64,000 bases of DNA, taken from assembly GCA_037576215.1 (NCBI GenBank), contig JBANDB010000019.1:1580803-1644802 (forward strand), written 5' to 3'. A model generated the notes under the pieces. That model did not search any database. It saw nothing but the letters and a program-made list of their open reading frames with translations, and was not told the origin of the DNA. Below are positions 3,901 to 64,000 of the stretch, piece by piece (within the stretch, counting starts at the first letter, position 1; every line of letters starts with the position of its first letter). This DNA comes from Armillaria gallica (taxonomy: Eukaryota; Basidiomycota; Agaricomycetes; Agaricales; Physalacriaceae). A program made the translations under genes and the position numbers.

Positions 3901-4316
3901 TCCATCCAAGTGGTGGTCTTCAGGTAAGCCATCTGGCAAACCCTTGAAGTCGACTATTCCTCCTAGGGTTGGTGCTGGTTATCCAAGCTTGATGGGCTTT
4001 GGAGATGAAGGTACGTGACGGTGGTCTGCAGCACTCCAGTCGCTTACTCTGTTTAGTTCCCATCTACGATGGTCGTGAAAGGGCCAGCTCGCATTTTCTT
4101 TTTAGGCCTATGGATTTTAGTATGTTGAAGCTGATGCCCCGATATACCGAGGAACGTGATCTGGATGCATTCACTCTCGTAGCCATCAGATACTTGTTGG
4201 GTGTTTGGTCAGGTTATAATGACCAGCCCCGTGTATCTACCAATGTGTTGTTTGTGATCGTGCTTGGTTCAGCACCTCCTGCTCGTACTTTGGCAGCTCG
4301 TAACCTGTTAGTTTAG
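960..4316 (+). CDS. Multi-exon hypothetical protein (disordered basic N-terminal half, globular C-terminal half)
   Basis: I do not recognise the family. Coding is inferred from a chain of short open segments joined by good GT..AG introns in consistent phase. Clear examples are introns 2749-2802 (with a TACTAAT branch-point-like motif) and 2870-2925. The N-terminal half is rich in Ser, Ala, Lys and acidic residues with NLS-like basic patches (KRAK near 1140, SPKKGSK near 2155) and looks disordered. From about 3060 the segments look globular; one reads DSYDAPMFFTFDDVKEI near 3258 and another, near 3700, contains AWSVILDLAYGESLA. The last exon ends in LAARNLLV and a stop at 4314-4316. The true start is uncertain: an ATG at 1302 is in frame but coding probably begins upstream. 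A nuclear role is only a guess from the basic patches. Confidence 0.45.
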
Positions 4317-5844: not shown

Positions 5845-7806
5845 ATGTCGCTCCCTTCTGGCCATGATGACATTGTGAGTCCGGTAGTTTGCTTGTGGAA
5901 ATATCTTATCTGATTCTATGTAAGAATATGCTTATGTTGAATGCCTTTCTGGAAGGCCATAGGTCTGACACGAGTAGAGATAGACTCCTTGGTTCTGTTG
6001 TGAATGGTTAGTGATATGTCGTCATATAACCAAAGATGAAAGTGTATGCTTATTCCTTTTGACTTCAGGATCGCACCCCTACTATGTTTATCGTGACAGC
6101 ATCGTGTCTGCCGGTTCGGTCCGCGGGAGCAATGTGTATATCTCCCTGCTTGGGAATTTTGCCGCCGTTATCTCCTGTCTGCCTGCACGTGAACTCGTCT
6201 GTCCATCCGTACCATCTCCTACTGTCGCTGAATACAACTGGCATCGCTTGGAAACAGCTGAGGTAGCCCTGTATCCGACCCGCTCTGTGTCCCTATGGCC
6301 TATATCCAGTCCATCCATCTCAGATGAACTTTGGGACCGTGTTTTTTCCTTTCTGAATCAACCGTCTCTCCTAATAGTTCGACTGGTTTGCCACCTCTGG
6401 AGTGTCCTCGCTATCAAATTCTCGCATCACCATATTCGACTACGTCTACCAGTGGATTGGCAGTTTTCTGATCGGGAGGATATGTTCGTCGTCTACTGCA
6501 TGCAGTCAGAATTGGCGCTGTGTATTTTTTTAGTGCAGCATGATATGTTGCATCGTGTTGTTAGCGTCCGGTACTTGCATTGGAGAGTGGGATTCTGTTG
6601 TTTTTTCTTGCATTTGCTGGACACTGTCACCACCGTAGAATTTGACGGTGGGCTCTGCACTGCTTGCAGTGTCATGGAGATTCCGTTTCCATTCCTACTA
6701 CCATCCACTGTTCGGACCCTGTCTTTGGCACGCTGTCATCTATTTGACCACAGCATAGAGGGAATGCTATATGCAGGTACTGCGCTTTCCTTCTTGAGCA
6801 TTAAGGGGATTGGCCATGCCGAAATGGTCTGTGTCTTTATGGTTTTTGGTCATCTACCAGGTGATAACATTGCATTCCGTGTAGATGGTGCCCTTTTACT
6901 CTAACATGTTCGGTTCTATCGACAACAATGAAGCTGGGATCTGGCGAGGCGGCGCAGGACTGACGTTACATCTTAGGAAGGAGGTCCGCAATGTCCCCCC
7001 ACCTTCTCTGACGCGACTTCATTTGGACATGCTGCATATGCCGTTCGGCCGATGACTTCAGTCCAACGATTCATTTCTTTCCGCCTGTGGTGATGACATA
7101 TCTGCATTTCTTAGGCAGCTCTTCACATTGAAGTATTCGACTTCTTGCATCAACAAATTGCTCCTCAGACACGAGGTGTTCCCTGTCCGCCTGCGTTGTG
7201 ATAACCTCACTACTCTAAGTCTTGCTGTCAGCAATGAATTCTATGAGGTGACATCTTGCCTCTTGGTTAGGGTGCAGCATACGCTGCTTGATTTTACCTT
7301 AAGGTTTTGTGAGTCTTATCAAGTCTGGGTTCCCTCTGTTCTATCACTGATTGTGGTGTATATCAGCTGATAATCTCGCGATATGTCGGAGCGCTATGAC
7401 CAACATTCGTATCGATGCGCTCTATCGATTAGTGCGTCTTACCATATGCAGCTTGCCTGGTTTATGGAAATATGCTTCTGTTACAGTGGACACTTGGTTA
7501 TCATCGGCCAAATCAAGCAGGAAGTCGTTTTTTTGCGTTCAATTGTTTTACGATCCTACCTACGATGACTCTCTTGAACTTGTCATGTATAGTCAGCTGC
7601 ATCGTATATTGGTGGGAAGTACAAGGTCAGGCACATTGCCCCTCGGTGGTGTCTTTCATATGGAGATGTTGTTATGTGAGACTGTTCAGATGCTGCCCGA
7701 AGATATTGCACATATGGATACCCTTGTGGAACAGTTGCATCTGGATGTCGACGTCGTGGCTGTAGTAGGTGATTGCAGTATTGTTTCATTGCATACTATA
7801 CTGTAG
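5845..7806 (+). pseudogene. F-box / leucine-rich protein, paralogue 1 of 3 (probably disrupted)
   Basis: Substrate-recognition subunit type of SCF ubiquitin ligases, if functional. Start ATG 5845 (MSLPSGHDDI) is chosen because exon 1 (5845-5874), exon 2 (5925-6006) and exon 3 (from 6069) have the same layout as the two downstream paralogues, and exon 3 opens with the shared motif GSHPYYV. The F-box lies near 6320-6430, around ISDELWDRVFSFLNQPSLL and VRLVCHLW, and is followed by the family signature DWQ. A leucine-rich region follows; a segment near 6750 containing HSIEGML is shared with paralogue 3. The reading frame breaks near 7050: the frame before it hits TGA, while the family-like motif PMTSVQ continues in another frame. 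I could not explain this by an intron, so I call it a probable pseudogene, although a sequencing error is possible. Confidence 0.55.
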
Positions 7807-13526: not shown

Positions 13527-16500
13527 TTGTGTATCGATGTGCATAGGTTGTTTGTTGTAAGATTCGAGCGTGCATCGGACTGCCTTGCTGTGTATGTTGT
13601 TATTGCTGTTATATTAAGTGTTGACTTACGTGTTTTCAGTCGTCTGGTATCATGTAGTGAAATACTATACTCGCCTGCCATATTGTATACAGACCCTACA
13701 CGTGTGCACAGTGACCCTCTGCATCGTGGCCTGATGTGGCATAGTACACAACTGTCGCTTATTGGCGATGTGTCTATTGGTGTGGTTTCGTGTGCCGCGC
13801 CAAGTGAGGACTTCGTCCATTGTTCAACGTGTCATAACGTGTGTCCATGTATTACCCCCAATCCTATGCGAATGTCGGTCCATATGAGTTTAATTGGTCT
13901 GCTCGAATACTCGTCAGATACTGCTATCAGGGATGCCTACATATTGTGCATCAGGAACAATATGTCCAGAGAAAGACGCATGCTTATGCTATACGGTATG
14001 GAACTTCGCTCGTTATCCAAGACCATAAAAAACAGTCTGGTATGTACTAAATGCATGGGCTATTTGGACCGAGAGTTTATTGTCGCAGGGTTAGAAGTTT
14101 ATGTGCGAATCGTTCGGACGTGTAAACGTAAGGTGTTGTTGACTCCAGCGAGCAACCAAATGCCCGAATGTGATGTAGGTACCGAATCCCTTCGGGTCAA
14201 TCAAGGCTGTGGAGTAAGATACATCCCTCACGATGCTATTGCTAAGTATGTGAAGATGACACAGCACACCGATGTCATTGGTAATACATACAGGTATGTG
14301 TATGTGGATCACTTTGATATGGTATCGACAGCAACGACGTTTCCAGACATAGCAGAAGGACACATTCGATTGAACGTCCCTCTGTCTGCTATATGTGACT
14401 ATATCCCTGTTAAGGAGTTAAAGGAGTTGGTAAAATTGCATCACTTTGATGATGTAAACCCCTTGTATATGAATAAAGCATCGCTCATGCGCTTGTTCTC
14501 TGATCATTATTGCTTCAAATGTGAATCAGCACTCACTACTCTCAAGGTCTGCCCAGTCCTAGGTAAAGGTTCTAATAAAACAGATCACCCCAAACCATCG
14601 TGTCGTGACGATATCCCGGTGGTATTCCCTCCCAAACCTATTGACGAAAGCCTAACCCATTCCATTCTGACAGAAGCATGTAATGCAATGTCGCCCAGTC
14701 GATTCGAAGAAGCAGGGTGCTGCGTGTGTGCGCAGTTGATGCCCATGACACAGCTCAGCTCTAGCCGTCATATGAAGAGGTTTATGTCGGTATTGGAAGT
14801 TCCTGGCATGACTAGGACAGAGAGGCTGTTGCTGGAGCAGCCTGTAACAGATCTACGAGGTCCTGTGATAGACAATTCTTCCCCTTACATCTGCATCAAA
14901 TGCAGAGTGTCTGTCAGGGAAGGTAACATACCCCACTTGGCTCTAGCACAGGGACTTTGGCTGGGCGAAGTACCCGAGGTGTTGACTAGATTGTCGTTCG
15001 CCGAACATATCCTGATCGCAAAGGTCAGGCACAATTGTTGCTTCGTAAAGGTTTCCCTCGCCAATGTGGGTTTTCCTGAGCTTGGGTCTAGAAAAATGAT
15101 ATCACACGTTATTTCTTTCGACACACCGGTTGCCAAAGTGTACGACATACTGCCGCCTCCCAAGGCAGATATAGATGAAGCTTTGGCTGTTTTATTTACT
15201 GGACCAGAGAAACCCACAGAAGAGGATATGAAAAGGACCCCTCTTTTAGTCAGGCACATCAACGTGGTAGAATCCTTGGAATGGTTATGTCTCAACCATC
15301 CTGACTATTCCGATGTGACCATATCAATGGATAACCTGAAGGAATATGCCGACAATACAGTGCCCGTTGAGGTTATATATCAACATAGTCTCACAAACAA
15401 AGTGGTCGAAGGCACCAGTATTAACGACAACGATATTGTGGACGGAACACTGAATGGGTCTTGTCCTATGGTAGTGCATGGCCTCATAGGTGAGGAGCTT
15501 AAAGATCTTCCTTTGCAGACCCAGAAAGTTCTGGCTGCCCATCATTTCAAAGCCAAACAAGGAATGTTGGCTGTCAGTTATGAGGAGCAACCAGAGTCAA
15601 TTTACAATAATCCCCGTCTATACCCATCCATGTTCCCATGGTTGTTCCCGTACGGCCTAGGTGGTATTAGTTCGACCGACCTGTCCAATGCGGAACACAA
15701 ACGGTGGTTACTTATGTACCATGACAAGTGTTTTCAGACTGATCCAAGCTTCCCTTTTGTTGCATTTAGTCACGAGCAAATTAAGTCTAGTACTATGGGA
15801 GGATTTCTGTTAGCCAAGAAGGATAAATTTCATGAGATAACGGATCGTATTATGAGACTGGATGAAAGCACATTGACCAGTATATTGGACCGACTAAAAG
15901 AGGGCATACATGTCATGCCTCAGACGGATAGCGAGAAGGACTGTTACCAGCTGCTGAATGACCTTGATCATGTTGCATATAAAGTATCCGGTTCTCTGAC
16001 ATCAAAAAAATACATGCATAACGAGATCTACTCTTTAATGGCTGCCGAAGGCGCGCCTTCTTGGTATGTCACCTTTGCACCCACAGACCACAAGCATCCG
16101 ATCTCTCTTTATTGGGCCGACAAAGACATAAAATATTCACCTATACCAAAAGCCGAGCATGATTGTATAGTTGCTATTACAAGTAATCCGGTTGCGGCGG
16201 CGAGGTTCTTTGACTTCATGGTCAAGATTTTCGTGGAACATGTCATGCGACCTGATTCGACAGAGCCTGGCATGTACGGTCACGCATCTTCTTACTACGG
16301 TTCTGTAGAGCAGCAGGGTCGACTCACTTTACACCTTCATCTTGTCATGTGGATAAGAAATTCGTTGAGTCCACAAGAGATAAGAGACAGGCTAATGGCT
16401 GGCGATTCTGAATTCCAACAGAGACTGATAGAGTATTTAGAGGCAGCCCATACCAGGGACTATTTCATGGGTTCCCAGGATCAAGTTAAAGAAGATAAAT

Positions 16501-16915
16501 TCAAAGCATCCATGAAAGAGGAATACCTAGATCCTACCGAGGTCCTCCCAGACCCTCCTCCTGCTCGCTGTCCCTGCGTGGATGATCAGTGCAAGCAATG
16601 CAAGAAAAACGAGTCTTGGTGGACCTACTTCCGTAGACTGGTGGATCATTTGATATGTACTGTTAATATACACAAATGTCACGAGAACACGTACGCTGAT
16701 GGCACCTTAAAGAAAGGTTCAGCTGCCAAAGGTTGCAAGGACAATAGATGGGGGAGGTGCAGGGGCAGATTCCCCAGACCCCTTTACACCGAGACCACGG
16801 TCAATCCCACTACTGGGCATATTGACGTCAGAAAATGCGAGGCATGGATAAACACCTTCACGCCTTTGCTCACCTATTTGTTTAGATGCAACACAGACGT
16901 GACTTCACTGCGGTC
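13527..16915 (+). pseudogene. Helitron Rep/helicase, N-terminal part (interrupted)
   Basis: First part of a rolling-circle (Helitron) transposase. The frame is open from 13527; the true ATG is unclear, and 13733 or 13865 are possible. Visible parts in order: Cys-rich segments (CTKC, CFKC, CCVCAQL, CIKC) with the sequence ALAQGLWLGEVPEVLTRLSF, typical of the DUF6570 region; then the Helitron helicase-like N-terminal domain from about residue 700 (YPSMFPWLFPYG, HKRWLLMYHD); then the HUH motif, His codons at 16332 and 16338 within LTLHLHLVMW; then a CxxC-rich stretch (CPCVDDQCKQC). The reading frame runs through SLRSG into the inserted element and stops at TAG 16923-16925. The catalytic tyrosines lie on the other side of the insertion. 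Confidence 0.85.
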
Positions 16916-18001
16916 GGGCACATAGAATTCTGCATTTGCATTTGCATGCGTGCATTTGCATTTTCACACATGCATGAGCATGACATGGATGCGTTTGTTG
17001 GCCGTCTTGTGCGTTTGGGCTTACAAACACCTGTTAAATTATTTTATTAGCTACAGTGTAAGTATGACTTACTGCTTATCAGATTTATACCCAGTATGAC
17101 ATCGACACCAGCCATAATTAACTTTCTGTGTCTTGGTAGAGTCTCTGTACAGCTGAGTCCATTAATGTTCGAGCTGGTATTTTGAATGTAAGAGCATTTG
17201 GAGGTTTTGAGAGTGTTAGTGGCCATGAGGTATGATAACCGTCAGTAAAAACCACGGCACCATTACCATTTTGTTGAGGAACAAGTTGAAGAAACCAAGA
17301 AGAAACTGAGCCAAATCCTGGCTTGAAAACGATGACTTGATGGCAACCTGGCTATGCACGACTAGAATACATCATAAAAATAAAATACCTGCCTAGAATG
17401 AGTGACTAGAAGCAATTATGGGCGGGATAAATTGAAGCGATCATAAGTCAACTAGTTCAACTCAGACTTGAACGCATCAAACGCACCGAACGCAGATTTG
17501 TCACATAACTGTCACACATCTGCGTTTAATCTTGGACGCATGCATTTTCAAAAGGAACGCATGCGTGTGCTATCTGAACGCTTGCGTTCAATGTTTGGAC
17601 GCATGCGTGACTTATTTTTGAGATGCGTGAGTCTTTGCGTTAATTTTAGATGTGCCTGATTCACTCAAAATCGAGAACAGCATAAGTACTTCGACACCAG
17701 AGGGTACTATATTCATTATGATACTAGAACTTACTAACATTCATACATTTATAGTCTTTCCAGACCATTCCACCACATTATTGAGTCATAATAAGTCCTC
17801 CAGGAAATCCGGACAAGTAAGTTTAATTTCAACAGAAAACATAATTACGACGTATTATTGAAATGACATTAGCTATCAGACGACCACACATCTAAACGCA
17901 TCGATCAGGGCACAAGCGCACGCAAGTTGAACTTACGCAAACGCAGACGAACGCAGTTGAACGCACGCACGCAGGGGTCGAACGTAGAATTCTCTTGGCC
18001 C
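16916..18001. mobile_element. TIR element A (non-autonomous, Mutator-like) inserted in the Helitron
   Basis: A 1086-bp insertion. The ends are imperfect inverted repeats: left GGGCACATAGAATTCTGC, right (complement) GGGCCAAGAGAATTCTAC, 14 of 18 matching. The flanks are a 9-bp duplication with one mismatch (16907-16915 and 18002-18010, sharing CTGCGGTC). Arrays of GCGT/ACGC-containing words lie just inside both ends and in the middle (about 17460-17660). No transposase or recognisable gene is inside; the interior is AT-rich. The length plus one TSD (1095 bp) is a multiple of three, so precise removal restores the Helitron frame. The 9-bp TSD and the G-rich terminus fit Mutator-like elements best; the class assignment is inference. 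Confidence 0.75.
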
Positions 18002-21000
18002 GCTGCGGTCTGGCACCGCAATAAAGGCTGTGTTGATATACGTATCCGACTACATCACGAAACCTTCTTTGAAGACGCACGTCTTCTTCGACGTAGTGAA
18101 ATCTGTATTCCAGAAGAGTAAAGATCTTCCCGATAGCACTACCAGATCAGGTAAGGCTAGGAAGTTGATGACTCAAATGGTAAATGCATTGGGCGTGAAA
18201 ATGGAACTTGGGGCCCCGCTTATATGTTCATATTTGCTGGGTTTTCCTGACAGATATACGAACAGAAAATTCGTTACATTGTATTGGCGCGCTTTCGTTG
18301 CAGAGGCGAGAAACGTGTGGAAGGAAGGAGAAGAAAAGCCGGACGAAGTCAAAGTTCACATCAAAAGACACGCGGGAGACATCGTGGGCGTATCGCCTGT
18401 TGAAGACTCTATAAGGAGGCCGGTAGAGCTGAGCCATTTCTCCCTGTATGAATGGATGTGCAGATGTGAGCGATCTCCTAACTCGAAGCTGCCTAAGTCA
18501 CATACCGAATATACGCCGGAATCCGATGCGGACGATTCCACGGATACACTGGTAGACTGGGGTGACAGCTGTACCGAACGATCTTCAGACAAATCACATG
18601 AAGTGGACATAACACATGATGCAGGCTCGCACGGCGACGCAACAGGTGATGCTCCAGCAAACGAGAACGAACAATGGATGGATGCTTCGGGATTGTTACC
18701 CGATTCTTAAAGGATGTTAGTCGAAACCCGCGGTACCGTGCCCGTCAACAACGCGACTCCCAGCCAGAATGGAAAAGGAAGGACCAAACTGCAGCGATTC
18801 GCTTTCACCAATGATCACCCTATGGCTAATACACATCATGTAACATGTCGCCCAGAGAAAGATAGGCACGTACCTAATTTCGTGGGAGGTATGCTCCCGC
18901 GCAGTGATGCAGGAGACAGAGAATTTTATTGTTCAACCATGATGGCGTTCTTCGTTCCGTGGCGGAGCGGGCGGCAGCTCAAGCGGGAAGGGGAATCCTG
19001 GACAGAAGCGTTTGAGTCGCATGTATTTCTGCCTTGGCAACAGCAGATTATGAAGAACTTTAATCTCAGATATGAATGTCTTGATGCGCGAGATGATTAT
19101 CATGCCCAGATGACCAAGGAGGCGTCGAAAGAGCTACATCCCATGTTTTCTATGGACGACACCGGTGACTCCATCATGAAGTTCGATGAGAACGGAAACG
19201 ATCTAGTCGCAGACGATTATGGGATCAGTAACGATGAACATAGCCACATTATACACGGAATATCATACAGGCGTAAAATGTTGAAGGCGGCGAAGATCCA
19301 GAGGATAATGGGAGCGAATGGTTGCAATTGGACTTTACCGGTAGATATTTTAGCGGACAGGAGCAATATATGTTCGGAAACAACAGTGGAACATCAGTCA
19401 GCCGGTCAATGGAAGGACACTATAGCGTCCATGCGACAAGACATTTTGGATCAACGCAAAGCTACTAACAAAAGTGGAACCAGTACGGCGGTCAAATTTA
19501 GCAAGCGATACGTAAACCAAGCAGAGATACTCACCCGTGATCACCTCAATAAAAGGTCTGTACATTCGTCCGATAGCGAGACTGACGCGATAGCTTCAGT
19601 ATCTAGTGAATTCAACTTGAATGCAGAGCAGGAAAGAGCATACAATATTATCGTGCAGCACGCACGGTCCTCGTCGCCCGAGCAGTTGCGGATGTATATA
19701 GGGGGCATGGGTGGCACTGGTAAGACACAGGTTCTCAGAGCTGTGATGAAATATTTCGATAAAATGGAAGAGGGTCATCGTATGATACGAGTGGCTCCTA
19801 CAGGAACGGCGTCATCTCTAGTGAGAGGTTCCACATATCACTACATGTTCGGAATCAACGAGTTCACTGGAGGAGAAGTTAGTAAAAAAACTCTAGGTGA
19901 AGTGAAAGCCAGACTTGAGGGAGTAGAATACGTTTTCTTGGATGAAGTATCGATGCTGTCATGCATCGACTTGTACAAGATCAGTGCGCGGCTCGCTATG
20001 TGCACGAATAACCCGGACCTGCCTTTCGGTGGGATGAACGTCATATTCGCAGGTGATTTTGCTCAATTACCCCCTGTGATAGGTGGCGAGAATGCCACTT
20101 TGTATAGGCCGGATAACGGTATGTATGCGACAAACAAGAAAGCACAAGAGGCGGCGCTGGGCAAAGCGATATGGCATCAGGTCACTACTGTTGTGATCCT
20201 GAGAGAGAACATGCGTCAGAAAACTCAAACAGAAGACGATGCAAAGTTGAGACAAGCGCTAGCTAACATGCGGTACAAAGTGTGCACGGCTGCAGATATT
20301 GGTTTCCTGCGGTCTAGAATATGTACTCGGGCGGAGAACACACCAGATATTACGTTGAAGCAGTTCAGGAATGTATCCATCATCACCGGTCTGAACATCC
20401 ATAAAGACGAATTCAACCGGTTGGGCACCGAACGATTCACAGTAGAAACCGGACAGGAGCTTGTACATTTTTATTCTGAAGATTCAATCACGGACGCTCC
20501 GATCAGCAATGCGAGACGTAAAAATAAATCGAAAGCGATCAAACTTACTGCCAAATTGCAACGCCACCTGTGGAACGCAAGACCGTGTGATAACAATAAA
20601 CATATTCCCGGAAAATTGTCGGTGTGCAAAGGATTACCCATGATGATCAGACTAAACTCAGCCACGGAACTGGCGATGACGAAAGGACAGGAATGTACTG
20701 TCCATTCGTGGGTCGAAGCCACAGGATCTAGAGGCCAAAAAATATTAGAGACCCTGTTCGTAACCTTAAGTTCCCCTCCGCAGGATGTCAAGGTACCTGG
20801 TCTGCCTTTGAATGTCGTCCCTCTGATTCGTACATCACAGGCGATAACTTGCTATCTCTCAGATGATTCGAGCATCAGTATTAATAGGTCCCAAGTCGAG
20901 ATAATCCCTAACTTTGCTATGACGGACTACTGTTCGCAGGGTAAGACCAGACCTATAAATCCGGTGGACCTAACAAACTGTAGGTCTCATCAGTCTTATT

Positions 21001-22418
21001 ACACCGCCCTGTCGAGGAGTGCATCCGCGGCAGGTACCATCCTTTTACCTGATTTCACCGATCCGAAACTGTTTGCGTTCGATCCAAGGAAGATACAGGG
21101 CGGATGTTCGGGTCATCTAAGACAAGAGTTTAGAGAGTTGGAGCTGCTGGATCATATAACCTTACTGCAGTACGACGGCAATCTACCGGTATCCGTAGAC
21201 GGTGAGAGACGATACGACCTTATAGAACGATTCCAGAGGGTTTCCGGTGCGTCTTTCGTCCCTCACCAGGTAGAGAGAGCGTTGCGATGGTCCGCACTCG
21301 ATCCGCTGCAGCCATTTGAATGCTGCAAGTTCGAATGGGACGTCAAGCCGTTCACGCATGCTCCCACCGGCATTGTACCCCAGACCAGCAAAACACAAGA
21401 CGACGATAAAGAGAATAAGCCGGCGAAGTGCAACAACGTAGGATCATCGAAGACACCGCAAGCATGTACCAACGTCGATAGTTCGGCTAGGAAAGTGACA
21501 CCCATGAAGCTACCAGGAAAGAGGAAGGGAAGGGCTTCGGAAGACGGCTTAATGGATGTCGCGGTCAGCAATGTTGGAGTGTTGCGAGCCTCGCAGTCCA
21601 CGGGGTTTGATAAAGCAGTTGCCGGGTGTGTGTGGTCAAGCAACAGCTGTCCCTACGACAGTATCATGTTCATTTTCGCCAATGTATGGAAACGAGATCC
21701 TGCAGTTTGTAGCCCGGGTTTCGCAGATATAAACACGGAGTGGATGGGGACGTTAGCAGACGCGTTAAAAGCACATGAAGAAGGCCGTTACAGCTTGGAA
21801 CAAGTCAGAGACTTCATGAGGAGGAAATTGCATAGGGCTTTCCCAAATGTATTCGTCTATGGTAGAGAGTCGAGTCCGTGTGCGATCATGGAGAGATGGT
21901 TCAGAAGAGACACACCGTCATCCAAAATCAGAAATATATGCAGTGCCGGTCACGATGTAGATGATATTGTTAGCTTATCGTGCGGCATTCATATGCCACC
22001 GAAATTTCCTGCATGGCAATCCATATCGGAGTATCTGTGCTATACACCCAACGACTCGAAATGTGTCTCGTGTCAAAGAAGCACAGTCAGACAGATGACA
22101 TTATTGCATGTCCCACATATACTCCCCGTGTACGTCGAGGGCGTATCGATCACAACAGCAGAACGGACTTTACGAATTCAAACAGTAGACTCAAACGTAA
22201 CTTACTTTATGGTCGGAGCGATATATTATGGCGCACATCATTTCACCGCGAGATATATAGACAAAAACCAAAATGTATGGTACAATGACGGCATCGTACA
22301 TGGTAGATCCTGTATACTAGAGGGTCAAGCAAACACAGTGGGTCTTAGTACACTGCCAGACGGCAGACAATGTACAGCATATATATATGTAAGGCAGTAT
22401 GGCAGTGACGACCGATAG
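18002..22418 (+). pseudogene. Helitron Rep/helicase, C-terminal part: Y2 motif, Pif1 helicase, ubiquitin-protease-like domain
   Basis: Continues the Helitron protein in the same frame from SGTAIKAV. The Rep tyrosine motif YVSDYITK gives Tyr codons at 18039 and 18051. TAA at 18708-18710 is an in-frame stop; coding resumes at once. The Pif1-type helicase follows: Walker A GGMGGTGKT near 19701, APTGTASSLVRGSTYH, Walker B VFLDEVSML near 19931, and GDFAQLPPV near 20052, through to the C-terminal SRSASAAGTILL segment near 21013. After a Lys/Thr-rich linker the C-terminus resembles a ubiquitin-specific-protease-like fold: NSCPYDSIMF with Cys at 21648, and HHFTARYID with His near 22236 followed by WYNDG. 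This Helicase-plus-peptidase layout is known from basidiomycete Helitrons. The protein cannot be made intact because of the insertion and the stop. Confidence 0.85.
18708..18710 (+). other. In-frame nonsense codon (TAA) in the Helitron gene
   Basis: The stop separates two open segments in the same frame (18030-18710 and 18714-22418) with a single intervening codon, so it is a point nonsense change rather than a frameshift or exon end. Confidence 0.75.
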
Positions 22419-22491: not shown

Positions 22492-25400
22492 ATGCTAGTC
22501 TTATACGGCGATCCTCTCGGAAATCCAGTCGATCCAGTCCTTGAAGGAGCGGTACGCTGGTGGCTGAGTGAGCATATTGCCAGTGAGTTATCACTAGGGA
22601 GCTTACCGATGACGCTTCAATTGGATCACCACAACTGCGGTATTCTCTCTGTTAATGGTATCCGAAACCTTACTGCCGTACTTCCATCCCTTGCTAAGGC
22701 CTCAGGTGTTGGCTTGGCATTACTTCGGATATCACTTTTCAATAACATTGCCGAGAGAGTTATGACACGAGTACGTACCGATTAATTAAACTGGGCTTCA
22801 TGCTGATTTGCCATAGCTTGAGACCATCGATTCCGATGACGAGATGCCTGGTGTCCTCAATGTCTGTGATGACTTGATTGATGATGCAGAGGAGAAACAC
22901 AGCGGAGGATGTACGATTGCACCCACAGACATCAGCATGCCTGCACCTCTCCCAACATGTGATTTCACTTTCAAGGTAGCGCCGATGAGCTCAGGACCTA
23001 CATGTGTATCAGAAAGCCTGCTAGAACCTTACATGGATAAAAACATACCTAGGTCTTCGAGCAAGCGCACACTCATTGACTCCGCTGCCCCAACACCAAA
23101 CCCGAGCCCACAGCAGAAAAGAACCCATGTTGTCGCCGATACAAGTATTCCCTTACCCCGCTTTACCTCCCATCCACCCAGCTCTGATCTTGTCGATGAC
23201 TCTATTTACGATGAGGATGATGATCCCCCTCCACTGTCCAGTGTCAACGAGTCTGATGATGAGGATGGCTATAGCGACAGCCCGTCTAAAGTGGGAGGGG
23301 CTGATGATCAGTCTGATGAGGAGGAAGCAGACAATGAAGAGCACATGGTGAAGACTCACAATGTATCCACAACAGAGCCAGCGATGAAGGCAAACATATC
23401 ATCCCCTGCACGACCTCCCACTTCATTGTCAAAAGCTGCATCACGACCGTCGTTGGAGTTGTTCCGGAATCTACGCAAGACGGCGCTTACCGATTTCTTT
23501 CAAGTCAAGACTGCAGAGGAACGGAAGCTTCGCTTTGCACAGGAAGTGGTAATTGCTAGTGAGCGAAGAGAGGAGATATTAGCTCAAGAGGCGCACATAA
23601 AAGAAATGGCACTGCATAAGAAGCAGAAGAACGATAGAGAACGCCAGCAGAAACATCGAGATAACAAGCGAAAGGCAAAGGAAGCTGAAGGATGGATGCC
23701 ACAACCTGGCAATCGTAAAAAGAGGGTAAGCGTGCAATACTGCTCAGAAGAGTGTTACTTACCAATTGATTAGAAAACCCAATACCTCGAAGAGCATGAT
23801 AATATGGGGAATTGTGATGAGAGTCGGACAGCAGAGATGTCGCGTCCACATCGCCAGTTCAAGGAGGATGTTCGGCTGAAGAAGGATACTGTCAGACGGC
23901 CGCGTAAACATGCAAAGACTGATGCTATCCGCACCAATTACTTTCATCCTCTCCTTTGGGATGACGTTGAAGCTGCATGGCGAGCAACCAGTCCTGAAAT
24001 CAGTCCGCGGGCCATTATGAAGTGGCTGAAAGTAAAGTTTCCGAAGCGTTTTGATCGACTGGCAGAGCAGACAGTGGGGGGATGGGTTGATAAGGAGGCA
24101 AAACAGAGGGGTGAATGGCGGTGGAAGGAAAGTGTCCTGAAGCAGGTCAAGAATGGCAATCGTCCCCACGCTGACTCCACGCGAACCGGCATTTTGGTAA
24201 GAATCTTGTTCCGTTATGTTCTCAGTGCCTGATTCATTTGTGGATGCAGAGCGCTTATCCGGAACTGTGTGCGACAATCAATGCTCGGCTATCTTCACTG
24301 CGTGCTGTTGGCATTCCCCTTACAATGACAACAATCCGAGGACTCATGATTGGCTATATCAAGAAACATGCACCCGAAGTCTTTTCAATCAAGCAAAAGG
24401 ACGATACCTCTTTCCGTTGCTCTGAGGCCTTTGTGCGACGCTATCTTTCAAACAAACTCAACTGGAGTCTTCGACGTTCGACGCGTTCTGCCAAGAAAGT
24501 TCCAGAAAACGTTAACGAGATCCTCACTGAGGCGTATCTCCGCGAGGCTTTCCTTGTCCAACAGCATGATATTCCGGCTGAACTACGTGTCAATACAGAC
24601 CAGACACAAGTTGTCTACCAACATGGATCAGAAAAGACTTGGGCAGAGAAGAACTCGAAGCAGGTACCAACAACAGGAAAGGAGGAGAAGCGAGCATTCA
24701 CTCTCGTTCCATCCATCTCGGCTAGTGGCAATGTTCTTCCCATGCAGGCTATTTATACCGGTGACACCAAGCGTTCCTGCCCCAATGCGAAGGCTCCCTT
24801 ATACAAGGAAGCGATGGAATACAGATTACATTGCTTACCTTCCATGTCCGGGACGTACTGGTCGACACAAGCGACAATGCGGGACTTGGTGGAGACCATT
24901 ATCGCTCCCTACTTTGATGAACAGAAGAAGCAGCTTGGACGGGAACCTACACAGTTCTCACTCTGGAAGATCGACTGTTGGAGCGTGCATAAATCGCAGG
25001 AATTTCGCTTGTACATGAAGGAGAACCATCCGTACATCATCCTCTGCTTCGTCCCAGGGAATTGTACTGGTCTTTGGCAGCCATTAGATGCTGGTATTCA
25101 GCGCGTTCTCAAGCTCTCTATGAAGCGTGCGTCTCATCGGGATCTTGTTGATGAGATCAGTGCCCAACTCGACAACGATCCTGATGGTATTCCCCACTTG
25201 GACGTCACTGTCGGAATGCTTCGCAATCGATCTGTTGGTTGGATTGTTGAGGCAATCCGAGACATCAGCAACAAAGACTTTGTGAAGAAGGTACGTCTTA
25301 CTGTTTTATTCTCCATTCCTTATCTTCTTACTTGTTGGGCAGGCATTTGAAATGTGTGCAGTTGGTGAGCTCAGCTGCTCCCAAGCTTCGCTCACATCAC

Positions 25401-26353: not shown

Positions 26354-27550
26354 ATGGCCTCTCCTGCCCGGAATCACTCCAATCCTGTAAGTGTATTTCC
26401 GGAGCCATCGACGTGGATGCTATCATACTGACAAACTGCTTTCAAAACGCTAGGTTCTAGGCCGTATTGATACCTCTCGGTTTTGGGCAGTCCTCATCGG
26501 TATTGATGCATATCCAACTAGTCCGTTACGCGGTTGCGTGTCGGATGCCATGGATATGAACAAATATCTAATTGAAGACCTGGGCGTTCCGGAAGGTCAC
26601 ATTCAACGCCTTCTCGGTCCTCGTTCACAGCCACACTCAGAGTCGGATGATGTCCGCGTCCGTTCCGCAAACGATTTCCCCCAAAGTTATCCTAGTGCTG
26701 ATTCCGACGGTATATCCAGTAATTCCAACACCCCCACCCGTGCGAATATCATCCAAACGCTTCTCAATATATCTACCGACTCCAGGATACAGAAGGATGA
26801 CAATATCATTATATATTTCTCTGGACACGGTTCAAGCTACCTTTGTTCGAACTATGTTTGCTGGGACGGGGTTGCAGCCACAGGATCAATCGAGGCTCTG
26901 TGCCCTATGGATCGCACCGCTTCTCATGATAAGGATTCCTCCATCCCCGACATTAGTGACCGAGAGATCAACATTATTCTCACCGAAATCTCTCGCGAGA
27001 AGGGAAATCATATCACCTTTATTCTCGACTGCTGTCATTCCTCGGGTGTCACCAGAGATGCGAGTACAACATGGAAAGGAGTGCGTCGTGCGGACCCGCT
27101 GCCAGCTGCTTCAATTGAAGTTATGTTCAAGGCCGCACACCAAAGACTCAGTGGTTTGAGGAGCTATCGGCCTGTAGATGCAAGATATTGGGAACCTGAT
27201 ATAACGTCGCACGTCATTTTGGCTGCATGCAAAGAGTTTCAGCGTGCGAAAGAGGATAAGGGAGCAAGTGGTTGGAATGGGGTTTTCACGCAGGCACTCA
27301 TTCGTGCTCTCAAATCGGATGTCTTGACAGAACGATCGACATACCGTGATCTCATAATGGCCTTGAGCATGCCTTCCGACACCAAGCAGACACCGCTTGT
27401 CGCTGGAAAACACAAGGATGCACGACTTTGGTATCAGGTATGATGGCATCTTTTGTTAATCCGTTGCAGGATTCCAACCATAGATATATACCATCATCGG
27501 ACAGCAGTCTTGTCAAGAGCCGGTTATCCGAGCATTCAAAAGAAGTTTGA
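26354..27550 (+). CDS. Caspase-domain (metacaspase-like, peptidase C14) protein with intact His/Cys dyad
   Basis: Cysteine protease-like protein of the small Agaricomycete caspase family, likely cytosolic, possibly in regulated cell death. Exons: 26354-26386 (MASPARNHSNP), 26454-27437, and a probable last exon 27470-27550; the last intron is very short (32 nt), so the product may instead end at 27443. Domain start: FWAVLIGIDAYPTSPLRGC. The catalytic His sits in YFSGHGSSY (codon 26826). The catalytic Cys is the second Cys of LDCCHSSG (codon 27033). Later conserved segments are VILAACKEFQRAKE and GVFTQALIRALK. About 330 residues, no signal peptide and no membrane segment. A diverged paralogue lies 10 kb downstream in the same orientation. 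Substrate and activity are not known from sequence. Confidence 0.85.
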
Positions 27551-35744: not shown

Positions 35745-37805
35745 ATGAACCTACCAACTGCATCCAGAGATGAGCCCAAGAAGCCTCATTCCATCTCCAG
35801 AATAGTCCCAGCCTCGATTCAAATCGCAAATATCGTGAAAGGGCTGGGTGGCATGGTGCCTATTGTTGGTGTCTTCGTAAAAGGTGTTGCTGAGACTGCA
35901 GCAGTGCTCTTGGAAAACTTGGAGGTCGGCTTCACATCTTATCCCCTGTTTTCAGTCTCTGATAGTAATTTGGAAGCAATTCCAAAACAATAAACAGGAT
36001 ATTCAAGATCTGACAGACGAGATAATTGATATTGTGATAATCGTTCGCGACGCCGGCATCCAGATATCCGCAACACCTGAGAGCATCAAATATGCGGCAG
36101 GTCTACAAACGACATGTTTGAAGTTCCAAGAGTTGTCATCCATTCGACTACAATTCCATACGCATTACTGATCTTTTGTTTAGATTTCTCTGCGAGCTCT
36201 CGAAGCAAGTGAACGAAATCAGTCGTAAGACAGGGGGGCTTCGAAGGAACATTGTGAAGTACTTGGATCACCAAAACGTCAAGGGGAGCATCACTCGTCA
36301 CAGGAGACTAGTAGAAAATGCCAGAGCAAACTTTCTGGTTCGGCTGTCTCTTCTTCCCGTGACGAATAGCTCTTTGACGACTGTGTTAAAAGGTTGAAGT
36401 TGCTTTAAACTCTAGCGCCTCCCTCTCCCGTCTCAACGAAGAGATATCTTCGGTTCAATCAATCCTAAGTCAGATGATGCTCAGTTTGCCCAATCACCTC
36501 GCGGATAATAGCAGGAGTATAATTCGTGAAGAGGCACAGCTAATGAGGCAGTACAGAATGCCAGGCGGTATGGACTCCTTAAATAACGGCCAAGAGACGA
36601 CTCTCAGTGCACAATTCAGCACAGATGAAAATTCTGTATCAACATTCCAGCTTATTGACTGGTTTTATCAACTTCAGCACCACTTTCTATTGCTTTGGTG
36701 GTGTTTCCATCTCCGGTGGACCTTTTCTCTTAGGTTCGAAATATCTCCTGCACCGGTAAGTCTGTATCAGATGACAGCGTTCCCAATTCTGATGAGCGGC
36801 AACGTAGCCTTCACACTACGGCTTTCGAACTTGGGCTGTTATCATTGGAATTGACGGCTATCCAGGGTCTCCAGTGTGTGGTTGTGTTGCGGAAGCACTT
36901 GCAATGGAAAAATATCTCATTCAGAATATCAACGTGCCAAAGGGGCAGATCCAACTCCTTACTAGCTCCGTTTCCCATTCCGACATCAATTCTTCCATTC
37001 CAAACCGTGAAAACATCGTCGATGCGCTTCTCGGTCTATCTACGAACTCCAAGATACATAACGGCGACAATATTATCATTTACTTCGCTGGACGCGTATC
37101 GAGCTACCTGATTTCGGAATGTCCTCCATACAAGAACTCGATTGCAGGGAATGGATGTATTGAGGCTTTGTGCCCTATTGATCGTGTCGCCCCCAATAAT
37201 GGTCTCACCGGCGTCCCCGACATTAGCGACCGAGAAATCAACACCATTCTCAACGAAGTCTGTCGCACTAAAGGTCGTCAAGTCACCTTCATTCTCGACT
37301 GCTGCCGCTCCGGAAGTCAGACCACAGATGTCAATATACTTGACGGAATGCGCAGCACTGACCCTCTGCCGCCTACATCAATTGAGGCTATGTTCGATGC
37401 TGCAGATCTCAGAATGCGATGGGATATTCCTGGCTATCGACCTATCTCTGCAACTGATTGGCTCCCAAATATGCAGTTCCGTGTTGTATTAGCTGCATGC
37501 ACAGAATATGAGCGTGCGAAAGAGATGGAGAGAGTGAGTGGGTACAATGGGATTTTCACAGAGGCGTTTGTCCATGCTCTGAAGTCGGGTTCCTCGATTG
37601 AAGAATCGATGTATATCGATGTTGACCGACTTTTGGGATTGTCAGACAGGAAGACGCCGGTTGTCGTGGGGAAACATATGGATGAACTACTTTGGTATCC
37701 GGTATGGTAATACGTCTTGATATTCTATAGATGTATATTGAAGTTGTCTTTTTCCTCTAGGAATCTAACAAACACGGTGCATCGCCATCGCAGAACCATT
37801 TGTAA
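35745..37805 (+). pseudogene. MLKL-like N-terminal domain / caspase-like fusion with catalytic His replaced
   Basis: Predicted start ATG 35745 (MNLPTASRDEPKKPH). Exons 35745-35924, 35956-36131 and from 36184 encode a helical domain (VPIVGVFVKGVAETAAVLLE, then NKQDIQDLTDEIIDIVIIV, then VNEISRKTGGLRRNIVKYL) resembling the MLKL N-terminal/HeLo-like four-helix domain of fungal cell-death proteins. A linker with NEEISSVQS follows; its frame link near 36390 is unresolved and may be a frameshift. The caspase-like domain begins with TWAVIIGIDGYP after an intron ending at about 36808 and runs to a final exon 37761-37805. Compared with the 26.35-kb paralogue, the catalytic His is Arg (YFAGRVSSY, CGC at 37093) while the Cys remains (LDCCRSG, codon 37303). 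Either a pseudo-enzyme or a decaying gene. Confidence 0.6.
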
Positions 37806-46736: not shown

Positions 46737-46961
46737 TTATGGCTCTGTTACTCGTTCCATACAGAGTGCGCATTTGTAGGTACGCGAGGATTGATGTCTG
46801 ACTGGAGTTCCTGCTCGACCGTTAGCATCGATTTCTGACATTGCAAACTTAACAGCTGGCTCGCTTTTGTCCTCCGATAGCGTGCGAATACTGAAGCTAG
46901 AGTCCCTTGACCGTACGATGACTATCTTTGATTGAATATATGCTATCCGCTCTTCTTGCAT
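46737..46961 (-). CDS. Short hypothetical ORF abutting element B
   Basis: A 74-residue - strand frame (MQEERIAYIQSKIVIV...) whose ATG lies inside the target-site copy next to element B. Protein-like and charged, ending CALCMERVTEP. No family recognised. If real, the insertion removed its native upstream sequence. Confidence 0.25.
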   Translation of the reverse strand: MQEERIAYIQSKIVIVRSRDSSFSIRTLSEDKSEPAVKFAMSEIDANGRAGTPVRHQSSRTYKCALCMERVTEP

Positions 46962-46966
46962 CGATG
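46958..46966. other. Target-site duplication of element B, left copy
   Basis: GCATCGATG, identical to 48854-48862. Eight of its nine bases (CATCGATG) form a palindrome. Confidence 0.8.
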
Positions 46967-48853
46967 GGGCCAGGAGAATTTTGCGAGCGATCCTTGCGAG
47001 CTTGCGTTCATTTGCGTTCTACGTGTGATCACTTGCGTTCCTATCAATGCGTGTTAGTACTTATGAATGCGAGCTAAATTTACCGACCAGACTAACTCAA
47101 AACTTCCTCGATCCTTACGAGGTTTAAACACTGTTCCGGATAGATAATAACATCAAGTAAATAGTTTAAGACTTGATAGACAGTAAATTACCTACATGCG
47201 AGGTCCCCAGGGATGGTCCAGTGGTATGTTTACAGCATACTACCATCACAAAATCAGTGAAAGTCCGAACGCAAGTCTAATCTTATGAACGCACGCAACG
47301 ATCAAGCTAACGCAAGCGTTCTAAAATGACTCGCAAGCGTTCTAGCATTGCTCGCAAGCGTTTAACCAAGCTCGCAAATGAACGCAAGTGTGACAGGTCT
47401 GTCACGTTTGCGTTTGACACCAATTTGACACTCGTTTAAATCAAGTTTAACTCCAGCATCACTACTTTATCTACCTATCACAATCTTGTCTTAGTTATCT
47501 GTGCACTTATTTAGCCATGTTATTACTCAATGTTGGCTCATGGACTTATATTTCCTCCGTAAAACCATACTGACATCATTTTAGTACAGAATCTACTGGC
47601 AGTCTACGAGGTCTGAATCATTTGCGACGACTATAGTCAGCCAGTGGAGCAGAAGGTACCACGGTACTCACTTCATCTTATTGTTCTTCAAGTTGAGTTT
47701 CCGAAGGACGTCCATAAAGAGGATAGACAGTGAGCACCATACCATGCTTGAAACAACCGTCACTGTCAGAAGTGCGGCATGTAACTGACTTGATACCAAG
47801 ACGCGCACGGGACCCTTCGAGAAGGGAATTAGATGCTTATCCGAGGTCCGTTCCAAGTTGAACCTGGGTCAAAACAATCGGGTCGGGGAAATTTTTCTCA
47901 TTCAAGGGGACAAATGTGCTGCCAATACCAAAAATTGTTTCGTCACCACCTCGACCTCGACCTCGAAATATCTATTTTGACTCCGTGAATGCTGCGTGGG
48001 AGAGGCGGCATACGAGATGACTCACCAAGTATGATAGTTTCTCTAAGACTTCATAGCAGATGGACGACTGTTTGCTAGGCCAAACAAGTCGATGGGAAAC
48101 ATGGTGACCCCGTTGTATGCGTTCTGACAATGAGTAAAATTACCAGTCTGTAATGGCTGTCATGGACGGGATCAGAAAAGAGGACGCAATTCTATGTACT
48201 TGATCTGATAGAAATTCCTTCGGCTGAGAGGAACTGAATGCGAGAAGTCTGGAGAGAAGAGGGTGTCGAACCAATATCAAATGAATGGGACTAGCAGACG
48301 GCGCTAAGGCTGCATAGAGGTTGACAGGCCTGTCGGTCGCATATTCCTTGCGAAGGCAGGAGCTGAGGGTGTCAATCTACAGGAAGGGAATGATGAGTTG
48401 GGATAAGGCCAAAGGGAGGGCTGACTTACCTTGGATTGGACAATACCTTTGAGCTTAAGGATATATCAACGAGAGAAGAAAGGTAGGAGCACATATCTTC
48501 GTTTATTTGCGACGGTATGGTCAATAAATCAGAACGAAGACTCATTTTCGGCACAGCAGAAGTAGAAATTTCAGCATAGTGAGAGGTGAAGGAAAATATT
48601 GCTCACGATCGTGACTGTACCTAAGTATTTCCGTGTTCGCATTCATTGAGGAATCGGGAAGGTTCGTAATCTACAACGGACAGAAGTTGACATGTCTGGA
48701 ACACTTTCAAACATCTGGATAGTCAAGCTGAGTTGGCATGGACTCAATCATGTCACGCTCGCAAATGATGTCACACTCACAAACGCAAACGCAAATCGAG
48801 GCTCGCAAGGGAACGCAAGCTCGCAAGGGTCGCTCGTAAAATTCTTCGTGCCC
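46967..48853. mobile_element. TIR element B: Pack-MULE-like transposon carrying P450 gene pieces
   Basis: A 1887-bp element. The terminal inverted repeats match at 38 of 43 positions (left begins GGGCCAGGAGAATTTTGCGA; right complement begins GGGCACGAAGAATTTTACGA) and share the run CTTGCGAGCTTGCGTTC. The flanks are perfect 9-bp duplications GCATCGATG at 46958-46966 and 48854-48862. Subterminal arrays of TTGCGTTC/GAACGCAA words lie at both ends, with an extra array at 47265-47420. There is no transposase inside. The interior holds a - strand cytochrome P450 fragment (separate entry). The terminus, TSD length and captured gene are the hallmarks of non-autonomous Mutator-like elements. Confidence 0.8.
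47665..48520 (-). pseudogene. Captured cytochrome P450 gene fragments inside element B
   Basis: Read on the - strand, N to C: a segment with KRRYVLLPFFSR (matching the P450 motif HxxRRxxLxPFFS), an in-frame TGA at 48467-48469, then ILKLKGIVQSK; intron 48377-48430 (GTAAGT..TAG); exon 48144-48376 with IDTLSSCLRKEYATDRPVNL, typical of the fungal P450 helix C-D region; then a piece near 48030-48120 with SICYEVLEKLSYL before a GTGAGT donor; then 47864-47968 with STFVPLNEKNFPDPI (the pre-heme PERF-type region) and 47800-47835 with HLIPFSKGPVRVLV. The last corresponds to the heme loop FSKGxRxCxG, but the heme-ligand Cys is abs­ent. The I-helix and ExxR regions are not seen. Non-functional as a P450; the identification rests on several collinear motifs. 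Confidence 0.6.
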
Positions 48854-49081: not shown

Positions 49082-50945
49082 TTATACTAGAATATTGACT
49101 CGCTGCTCTCCACCTGTGACATCCAACATTCTTTTTGCCGCGTCTCCTGCCATTGTCAACACTGACAGTTTCTCGAAGCTCTCGTCTGACAGTCTTCGCC
49201 CGACTACCCACTGTACCCAGTCCCTGCGATCGATGCTCGCATCGTATTCTTTGTCGGGTCCGATCAGTGTATACGTCTCGTCGGGGATGGCGTACTGATG
49301 CGTTGCAGTAATGTTGAACACATGCTGTATCCCGTGCGTGTCTTCAACAAGCAACTCCCCATATCTATGCGTTCCTGTTGAGCCTAATGCAGCCAACCCC
49401 CGCACAAATCCGTTTTCAACACAGAACCCCTGACACTGATCAACATCGTCCGCTCCATGCTTCCAAACACCCGTATATGTGTCCCACCGTGTATCATGCT
49501 CAGACAGAGACTTCTCCAGGACTTGGTTCCATGATGGTCGCCATTTTGCACCTGCATTACCCAGTTCTGGATACTTAAAGAATAGATCCCCCCACATGAG
49601 GAAACTTGTTGTATTCATGAAGGCTGTCCATGCATCCTCGAGAGACTGGCTCTCGTAATATGCTGGTATTATGTCTGAGCTCAGAAGCATTGCCATCCCC
49701 GCAATCTTATCCACCGGGTTCGTCGACACCCGGCGCCGCATCTCGTCCAGCAAGTCCAAGCGTTTCAGGTCCCGCAGCTTCTGGTGGAATGTCGTCAGAA
49801 CCGCAGTGTCATATTTCCCGTCCTTGTCCGGCTTCGCGTCCAGTGGGCCATCAGGAGTAACTCCGCAAATTTCATAACCCTGGAATCCGATCTCCTGCAG
49901 CGTCCAGGCACGATTAAACCAGCAACGATCACTGTCAAAGTAGCCTTCTGTCACACGGAGAGGCTGCCCCAGCCCACTCAGGTAGCAGTGGGTCTTGTTG
50001 AAGTCATACACCTGTCCAATGGTGGGCACATCTAGCTTCCACTCCTCTGCACGTAGATCTTCCCTTCGCCCTCCTTTCTGCCTTAAACAGAGCACATCCA
50101 ACCACACGTACTCCAAGCCCTTATTGAGCATCTCAATGCGGATCAGGTCGAGGTTGGCATCCTTCGGAATAGGCACGGGCCATTCGCATCCATTGATGGA
50201 CGTCCACACGTCCACACGATCATTTGCGTCCACCCAAGCATGTGATATCGCATGTGGATGTGGTTCGCCAGTAGTCCACATCAGTATGACACGATTGCCG
50301 TACAGATCCCAGACACGCCGAGGATATGTGCGTGAACTGACACTACCGTTTCCATGCACCGCCTTTCGTCGCCTCTCCTGGTCCTCAGCCTCACAACCGT
50401 GTAGTTCGTCCCGGACGGTATTCCAGTCTTCAGTGTACCACACTGCACGAAGACAGCTGTAGGCAGTACCAAAATCATATTTCTTCGTGATGCAATCTTC
50501 AAGAAGGGAGGGTAAGGATGGGGTGTTCATGGTGTACGATGTTCCGAGGATGTAGTTGAGTCGGCGTAAGAGGCGTGGGGCGCCGAACATAGTGCAGGGA
50601 ATGTTGGCGAGGGAGGCAGATATCACAGGTTTTCTGCGAGTGTAGGTTCGTTGTAATGGAACGATGACCTCCTCCTCCGCTTGGTCAATCTCAGTGCGGG
50701 CGGAAATTGTCACCTCGGGGAGCTTTGCATAGTAGAGATGTTATCAAGTGTTCTTTTGCTACTTTATGACATACTTACTACTACTACTATGTACGGCCCG
50801 TCGCGCGGGAGCACGGATGTGCGGTTCTTCATTTTCGTAGCCAGTCCGCCAACCATGAATCGGTGGCCTTCGACTGCAGACTTTCCTTAGTTGAGTTGTA
50901 TGAGCAAAACAAAGGAAATCAATACATACCCTCATCCTTATCCAT
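49082..50945 (-). CDS. HET-domain (heterokaryon incompatibility) protein
   Basis: Member of the HET family, which in filamentous fungi triggers cell death after fusion of unlike individuals; cytosolic. Exons on the - strand: 50930-50945 (MDKDE), 50779-50885 (with HRFMVGGLATKMKNRTSVL), 49082-50722; introns 50886-50929 (GTATGT..AAG) and 50723-50778 (GTAAGT..AAG) are in phase, giving about 587 residues. HET-domain signatures in the large exon: HPHAISHAWVD, then YVWLDVLCLRQKGG, then IGQVYDFNKTHCYLSGLG, then DRCWFNRAWTLQEIG. No NACHT or WD repeats follow. No lesion was seen, so it may be functional. TIR element B ends about 230 bp from its 3' end and a hAT-type MITE lies about 420 bp beyond its start. 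Confidence 0.9.
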
Positions 50946-63737: not shown

Positions 63738-63870
63738 AAGCTGAGTTTGAATTTTCCGGCCATTGCCATCCCATGGCCTACTCCGACTGAGTTTCAATTC
63801 CATTGCACTGCCATCACTGCTGCCTCTCTATGGTGACGAGCTTCAATTCTACTGTGGTGCTGCTTCTGCA
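63738..63870 (+). repeat. Imperfect subterminal repeats beside the telomere
   Basis: Three diverged units of about 40-50 bp, beginning GAGTTTGAATT, GAGTTTCAATT and GAGCTTCAATT and each followed within 40 bp by CCAT/CTGCC-type words, lie in a row directly before the telomere array. Confidence 0.45.
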
Positions 63871-64000
63871 AGGGTTAGGGTTAGGGTTAGGGTTAGGGTT
63901 AGGGTTAGGGTTAGGGTTAGGGTTAGGGTTAGGGTTAGGGTTAGGGTTAGGGTTAGGGTTAGGGTTAGGTTAGGGTTAGGGTTAGGGTTAGGGTTAGGGT
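63871..64000 (+). repeat. Telomere, TTAGGG repeats
   Basis: About 21-22 tandem TTAGGG units, G-rich strand running 5' to 3' to the window end, as expected for a right chromosome end. One unit near 63965 is TTAGG (one G missing); the rest are exact. Confidence 0.97.

Follow-up and report, generated by a model that had tools for sequence, protein, structure and literature searches.

A Mutator-like transposon of Armillaria gallica with a cytochrome P450 fragment as cargo: a probable fungal Pack-MULE

Near one end of a 64,000-nucleotide stretch of Armillaria gallica DNA (the window), pieces of a cytochrome P450 gene lie between the inverted ends of a transposon, which raises the question of whether the transposon captured this host DNA and carried it to new sites or came to rest where a P450 remnant already stood. 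The element is a complete transposon of 1,887 bp (46967-48853) in a subtelomeric position, ~15 kb from the TTAGGG telomere repeats at 63850-64000 that end both the window and contig C19; the genome searched comprises 86 Mb in 28 contigs. The explanation we favor, with a probability of about 0.92, is that this is a non-autonomous Mutator-like element (MULE) of the MuDRF branch holding a captured fragment of a host P450 gene, and thus a fungal Pack-MULE. The initial annotation, made from the sequence alone, had proposed such an identity, and it is supported by the ends of the element, its target site duplication (TSD), the presence of the cargo in four copies and transposase remnants in related elements.

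Ends of the element, its family and transposase remnants

The two terminal inverted repeats (TIRs) of the window element are identical at 38 of 43 positions and at 43 of 50 (86% over 50 nt), and a 9-bp duplication, GCATCGATG, abuts them on both sides. The ends are of two distinct types, GGGCCAGGAGAATTTTGCG and GGGCACGTAGAATTTTGCG, which are also paired at other loci; the window copy has them in slightly altered form. Internal to the TIRs lie subterminal arrays in which the motif TTGCG occurs 19 times within the two ends (element positions 1-450 and 1641-1887), compared with 1.79 on average, and never more than 8, in 1000 two-base-block shuffles. The longer motifs TTGCGTTC and TTGCGAGC occur there six and seven times, respectively, compared with 0.03 in the shuffles. 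The 43-bp inverted ends with 38 matches, the perfect TSD and the subterminal arrays claimed in the initial annotation were thus all reproduced.

These ends define a sizeable family. A 19-base pattern with at most two mismatches matches 171 places in the genome (84 and 87 for the two ends), compared with one and none for the reversed pattern. Perfect 9-bp TSDs flank 20 of 31 end pairs but none of 930 mismatched pairings, in a count that set aside the single-ended loci (L018, L028, L038, L040, L052 and the second end of L053). The 11 pairs that miss are L010 (6/9), L016, L017, L021, L026 (8/9), L043, L044 (7/9), L049, L050, L051 and L054/L065; the miss at L017 is a one-base shift, the end there being short of one G.

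The main sub-families have ~600 bp in common at the A end and at least 200 bp at the B end, and the middle is variable. An 8.3-kb copy with a perfect TSD (L035, 700-9019; C4:1018699-1027018) holds a Helitron-type DUF6570 piece, L021 is filled by a repeat of high copy number (78 matches), and L011 contains a nested repeat of ~500 bp. The interior of L022 has dispersed matches, mostly at 64-82% identity, and no gene was recognized there in this genome comparison; one open reading frame (ORF) each from L016 and L046 matches no Pfam family above the cut-off. A 178-amino-acid ORF in L039 was rejected as a second captured gene, being a transposase remnant. The search for further copies proposed in the initial annotation therefore succeeded in that many were found, but it yielded neither a second host-gene cargo nor an intact autonomous copy among those examined, which are only part of the family.

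Transposase remnants of MuDRF type, N- or C-terminal only, are present in 5 of 28 elements. Their relatives, which include full proteins in other fungi, combine a GCM DNA-binding domain with conserved D, D, CxxH and E residues. MuDRF is described as a branch of MuDR with a 9-bp TSD and an autonomous protein carrying GCM and DDE domains (PMC3164196), and the TSDs of MULEs range from 8 to 11 bp (PMC6446971). The 9-bp TSD and inverted ends of the window element agree with MuDRF and with the 8-11 bp expected of a Pack-MULE. In Foldseek taken alone, the GCM domain is the sole match at E <0.001, and no match was obtained when the transposase alignment was compared by hhalign with one MULE protein of this genome. 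With relatives of the kind described above, the remnants in the sister elements fit the MuDRF branch of the Mutator superfamily, in keeping with the Mutator-like identity first suggested. The window element holds no MuDRF-type protein pieces detectable by tblastn at E 1e-3 and so, as is characteristic of Pack-MULEs, has lost the transposase gene.

Could the element instead belong to some other TIR superfamily that resembles Mutator, so that the capture is real and the product a Pack-TIR of a different kind? This is improbable. The KDZ transposase domain is abundant in the genome (169 matches) and the MULE domain PF10551 is scarce (3 matches), and the missing autonomous copy would leave room for another mover. 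However, the 9-bp TSDs at 20 of 31 pairs contrast with the 8 bp of Zisupton, Dileera and usual hAT elements and the 5-7 bp of hAT variants (PMC12730594), and membership in KDZ (Zisupton, Dileera) or hAT was rejected on these lengths; the GCM-type pieces in sister copies also match the published description of MuDRF (PMC3164196).

Candidate movers fared no better individually. Four KDZ loci have no end-like site closer than five mismatches, and by eye none of the KDZ matches listed is bracketed by end pairs. The three PF10551 loci (L032-L034) have no ends of this family in the 10 kb taken for each. The copy with the DUF6570 piece is set aside as an autonomous element because its interior is that nested piece, and the long pairs L036/L037 (C4:1052451-1068175) and L054/L065 (C15:507174-517650) enclose nested long terminal repeat retrotransposon polyproteins whose domains include reverse transcriptase, RNase H and integrase. 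Helitrons have neither TIRs nor TSDs, and the presence of both excludes the element from that class.

Two observations concern other Mutator-like sequences. L034 is a different, PF10551-type MULE with long inverted repeats of its own (1091-1260 and 6890-7048) that are unlike those of this family. At L068 (1-5022), a relative of the MuDRF-type transposase is followed by ORFs resembling a cysteine-type peptidase (NSCWLDSS) and, weakly, a PHD finger, and some fungal MuDRF-type members resemble this arrangement.

The P450 cargo, its carriers and its relatives

The interior of the element derives from a P450 gene read on the minus strand. A DNA search of the genome identified two P450 loci on contig C16, L019 and L020, that are collinear with element positions 685-1604. 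When the protein of L019 was compared with the element by tblastn, stretches of 72.8, 55.8 and 46.2 bits were recovered, compared with a best score of 25.0 bits among 200 two-base-block shuffles, each searched singly. In the P450 orientation the element matches L019 positions 2554-2913, 3162-3296, 3352-3450 and 3633-3930 in order, and the intervening parts are absent. Introns are kept, one of them of 53 bp with GT..AG borders; their retention indicates that DNA rather than cDNA was captured.

The window copy of the cargo is no longer intact. The motif KRRYVLLPFFS begins at 48504, an in-frame TGA stands at 48531-48529, the heme site has suffered a 1-bp deletion plus a TGT-to-CGT change that removes the cysteine, and the ExxR exon of the relative (KESLR) has no counterpart. 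Because of these stops, frameshifts and losses the cargo is a pseudogene. The minus-strand P450 motifs, usable splice sites, gained TGA and lost heme cysteine had all been called correctly beforehand; the claimed loss of the I-helix/ExxR region holds for the ExxR exon, but a stretch that includes the beginning of the I-helix exon can still be recognized, at 65% identity to L019. A putative effect on the host through small-RNA regulation of the related gene is possible.

L019 is an intact nine-exon gene encoding 488 amino acids (one of its eight introns is GC-AG), and its protein scores 230.8 bits with PF00067. Identities are 95% to Armillaria borealis, 91% to A. novae-zelandiae, 88% to Guyanagaster and 87% to Desarmillaria. 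By summed tblastn the cargo is closest to the group formed by P0001-P0004 and L019, with Guyanagaster P0003 first at 192 bits and other P450s at no more than 133, so transfer from a distant organism need not be invoked. The proposed comparison of the translated interior with fungal P450s thus gave matches, and an intact relative was also located at another site in this genome. No family-type ends were found around L019 or L020 within the 6 kb taken for each; as with Pack-MULEs generally, a relative of the host gene therefore lies outside any such element. L020 (2735-3127) has a stop where L019 reads on and may be a pseudogene, and L042, a family element with a perfect TSD, is located ~3.5 kb from it.

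The P450 segment is present in at least four elements: the window copy (C19), L009 (C4), L010 (C15) and L011/L012 (C5), the last interrupted by ~28 kb of other DNA. This count is a lower bound because the carrier search scored 40 of 60 candidates. In the three carriers that retain the start of the match to L019, it falls at the identical base, and the end positions in all four lie within five bases of each other. Perfect TSDs, each different, flank three of these elements, and comparison of the flanks of all four (0.9-1.0 kb per side) revealed no mutual match. The shared cargo boundaries, differing TSDs and unrelated flanks indicate that the cargo moved with the element, again as expected of a Pack-MULE, and in this genome they bear out the original view of it as cargo and not as host sequence already in place.

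Over the last 150-156 bp of the cargo, identity to the window copy is 94% for L011 and L009 and 91% for L010, compared with 72% for L019. At the A end, the Kimura two-parameter distances of the window copy are 0.056 to L009 and L011 and 0.085 to L010, compared with 0.256-0.274 to the P450-less copies L014, L015 and L017; B-end distances among carriers are 0.067-0.150. The B-end tree unites the four carriers (0.913) and the A-end tree unites three of them (0.857). These distances and trees fit a single capture followed by several transpositions.

Insertion of a transposon into or next to a P450 pseudogene that was already there, or chance flanking of a host P450 by two elements, would give a similar picture with neither capture nor movement, and the decay of the cargo and the large number of P450s (107 PF00067 matches in the genome) would suit such a coincidence. 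We consider it very unlikely, however, given that the same segment occurs with the same boundaries and the same ends on four contigs, with three perfect TSDs and unmatched ~1-kb flanks. Least likely of all is multiplication of the carriers by segmental duplication after P450 DNA entered one element by ectopic repair, since the three TSDs differ and the ~1-kb flanks of the carriers show no similarity to each other, even though the decayed junctions do not reveal the capture mechanism, L010 has no perfect TSD and single-copy Pack-TIRs of animals are thought to form by transposition-independent gap filling (PMC8277862).

Some observations do count against the identification as a fungal Pack-MULE. 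L010 has a TSD matching at 6 of 9 positions, and its place in the A-end tree is poorly supported (0.225). The transposase match in L039 is short, and an intact autonomous copy with these ends was not found among the copies examined.

Table 1. Features of the element and its P450 cargo in window coordinates; element positions (el) are given in parentheses.
Feature	Position	Strand	Remarks
TIR, A end	46967-47016	+	GGGCCAGGAGAATTTTGCG...; same end found at many other genome sites
TIR, B end	48804-48853	-	GGGCACGAAGAATTTTACG... as read on the minus strand
9-bp TSD GCATCGATG	left 46958-46966, right 48854-48862		copies match 9/9
A-side subterminal array, TTGCG core	46967-47416		13 TTGCG per 450 bp, both strands
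Element backbone, A side	46967-47575 (el 1-609)		common to P450-less copies
Element backbone, B side	48607-48853 (el 1641-1887)		common to P450-less copies
Captured P450 segment, pseudogene	47651-48570 (el 685-1604)	-	corresponds to exon 3 through the last intron in the C16 relative; internal deletions
P450 exon 3 and start of exon 4	48222-48570	-	retained 53-bp intron 48377-48429, GT..AG
P450 exon 4 end, intron, start of I-helix exon, decayed	48083-48220	-	65% to L019 3162-3296
P450 exon 5 end and beginning of next intron	47985-48085	-	match to L019
P450 exon 7 (NEKNFPDP, HLIPFSKG), exon 8, start of last intron	47651-47931	-	mutated heme site just below 47817

Proposed origin and related systems

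A Pack-MULE history of the locus would begin with the uptake of ~1.4 kb of a host P450 gene, introns included, as DNA between the ends of an element that had probably already lost its transposase. Template switching or gap repair within the element may have been the route, and both models are discussed for animal elements (PMC8277862). A MuDRF transposase acting in trans would then have taken the element with its P450 cargo to at least four sites, with 9-bp duplications of the target, after which the carriers would have decayed, each losing different parts of the cargo.

The TTGCG arrays are natural candidates for transposase binding sites, and we predict that they are bound by the GCM domain. 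Animal GCM domains prefer ATGCGGGT, which has the TGCG core in common with the arrays; the full octamer has no occurrence in the element ends. More broadly, MuDRF elements of mushroom-forming fungi might spread host genes in the manner of Pack-MULEs and use TTGCG arrays as GCM-domain sites, a proposal that we offer tentatively and with the odds somewhat against it. If true, the sequence preference of animal GCM factors would be visible in the recognition sites of a transposon itself, and the system offers a direct test of GCM-domain binding to transposon ends.

Pack-MULEs are already known from plants, and capture by a fungal TIR transposon is known from a hAT element (PMC6710886). Like the plant elements, the one described here is non-autonomous, multicopy and bounded by inverted ends and a 9-bp TSD, and it carries a host-gene fragment with a relative elsewhere. 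It differs from them in its fungal host, in the association of its ends with the GCM-domain MuDRF branch, and in that one P450 fragment recurs in the four copies found. Basidiomycete MuDRF elements share the 9-bp TSD and, in the protein type of the remnants, the GCM domain and conserved D, D and E; the accessible portion of the description mentions no gene capture (PMC3164196), whereas in this genome host DNA is carried by non-autonomous members, and the copies examined include none with an intact transposase.

Captured host sequence between TIRs, and multicopy carriers with distinct TSDs, are likewise features of animal Pack-TIRs. Of 370 such elements, however, 208 are hAT and 115 Tc/Mariner, and the survey states that the animal reference genomes yielded no Pack-MULE (PMC8277862). 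In Dothideomycetes, a cut-and-paste hAT transposon captured and amplified a host histone H3 gene, but with an 8-bp TSD and in ascomycetes (PMC6710886), in contrast to the Mutator-like element and intron-containing P450 fragment reported here. Helitrons of Pleurotus ostreatus are also basidiomycete transposons with cargo genes but move by a rolling circle (PMC4289320).

Gene capture by Mutator-like elements has been described mainly in plants, and captures in animals mostly involve hAT and Tc/Mariner elements (PMC8277862). Among the open-licence papers listed we found no report of capture by a Mutator-like element in fungi, consistent with the scarcity asserted in the initial annotation. Multicopy capture with several different TSDs by a GCM-type branch in a basidiomycete suggests that the ability to capture genes may belong to the superfamily rather than to plants, and the end pair can be used to screen agaricomycete genomes for captured genes.

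Other mobile-element and domain matches are present in the window. Helitron proteins are encoded at 13527-16925 (DUF6570 and Helitron_like_N) and 18714-22418 (PIF1 helicase), and an ORF with a DDE_1 domain (24238-25350) adjoins the Helitron. A caspase domain (Peptidase_C14) is found in two ORFs (26538-27443 and 36874-37710), and an ORF ~230 bp past the element (49082-50713) has a HET-domain match slightly below the cut-off.
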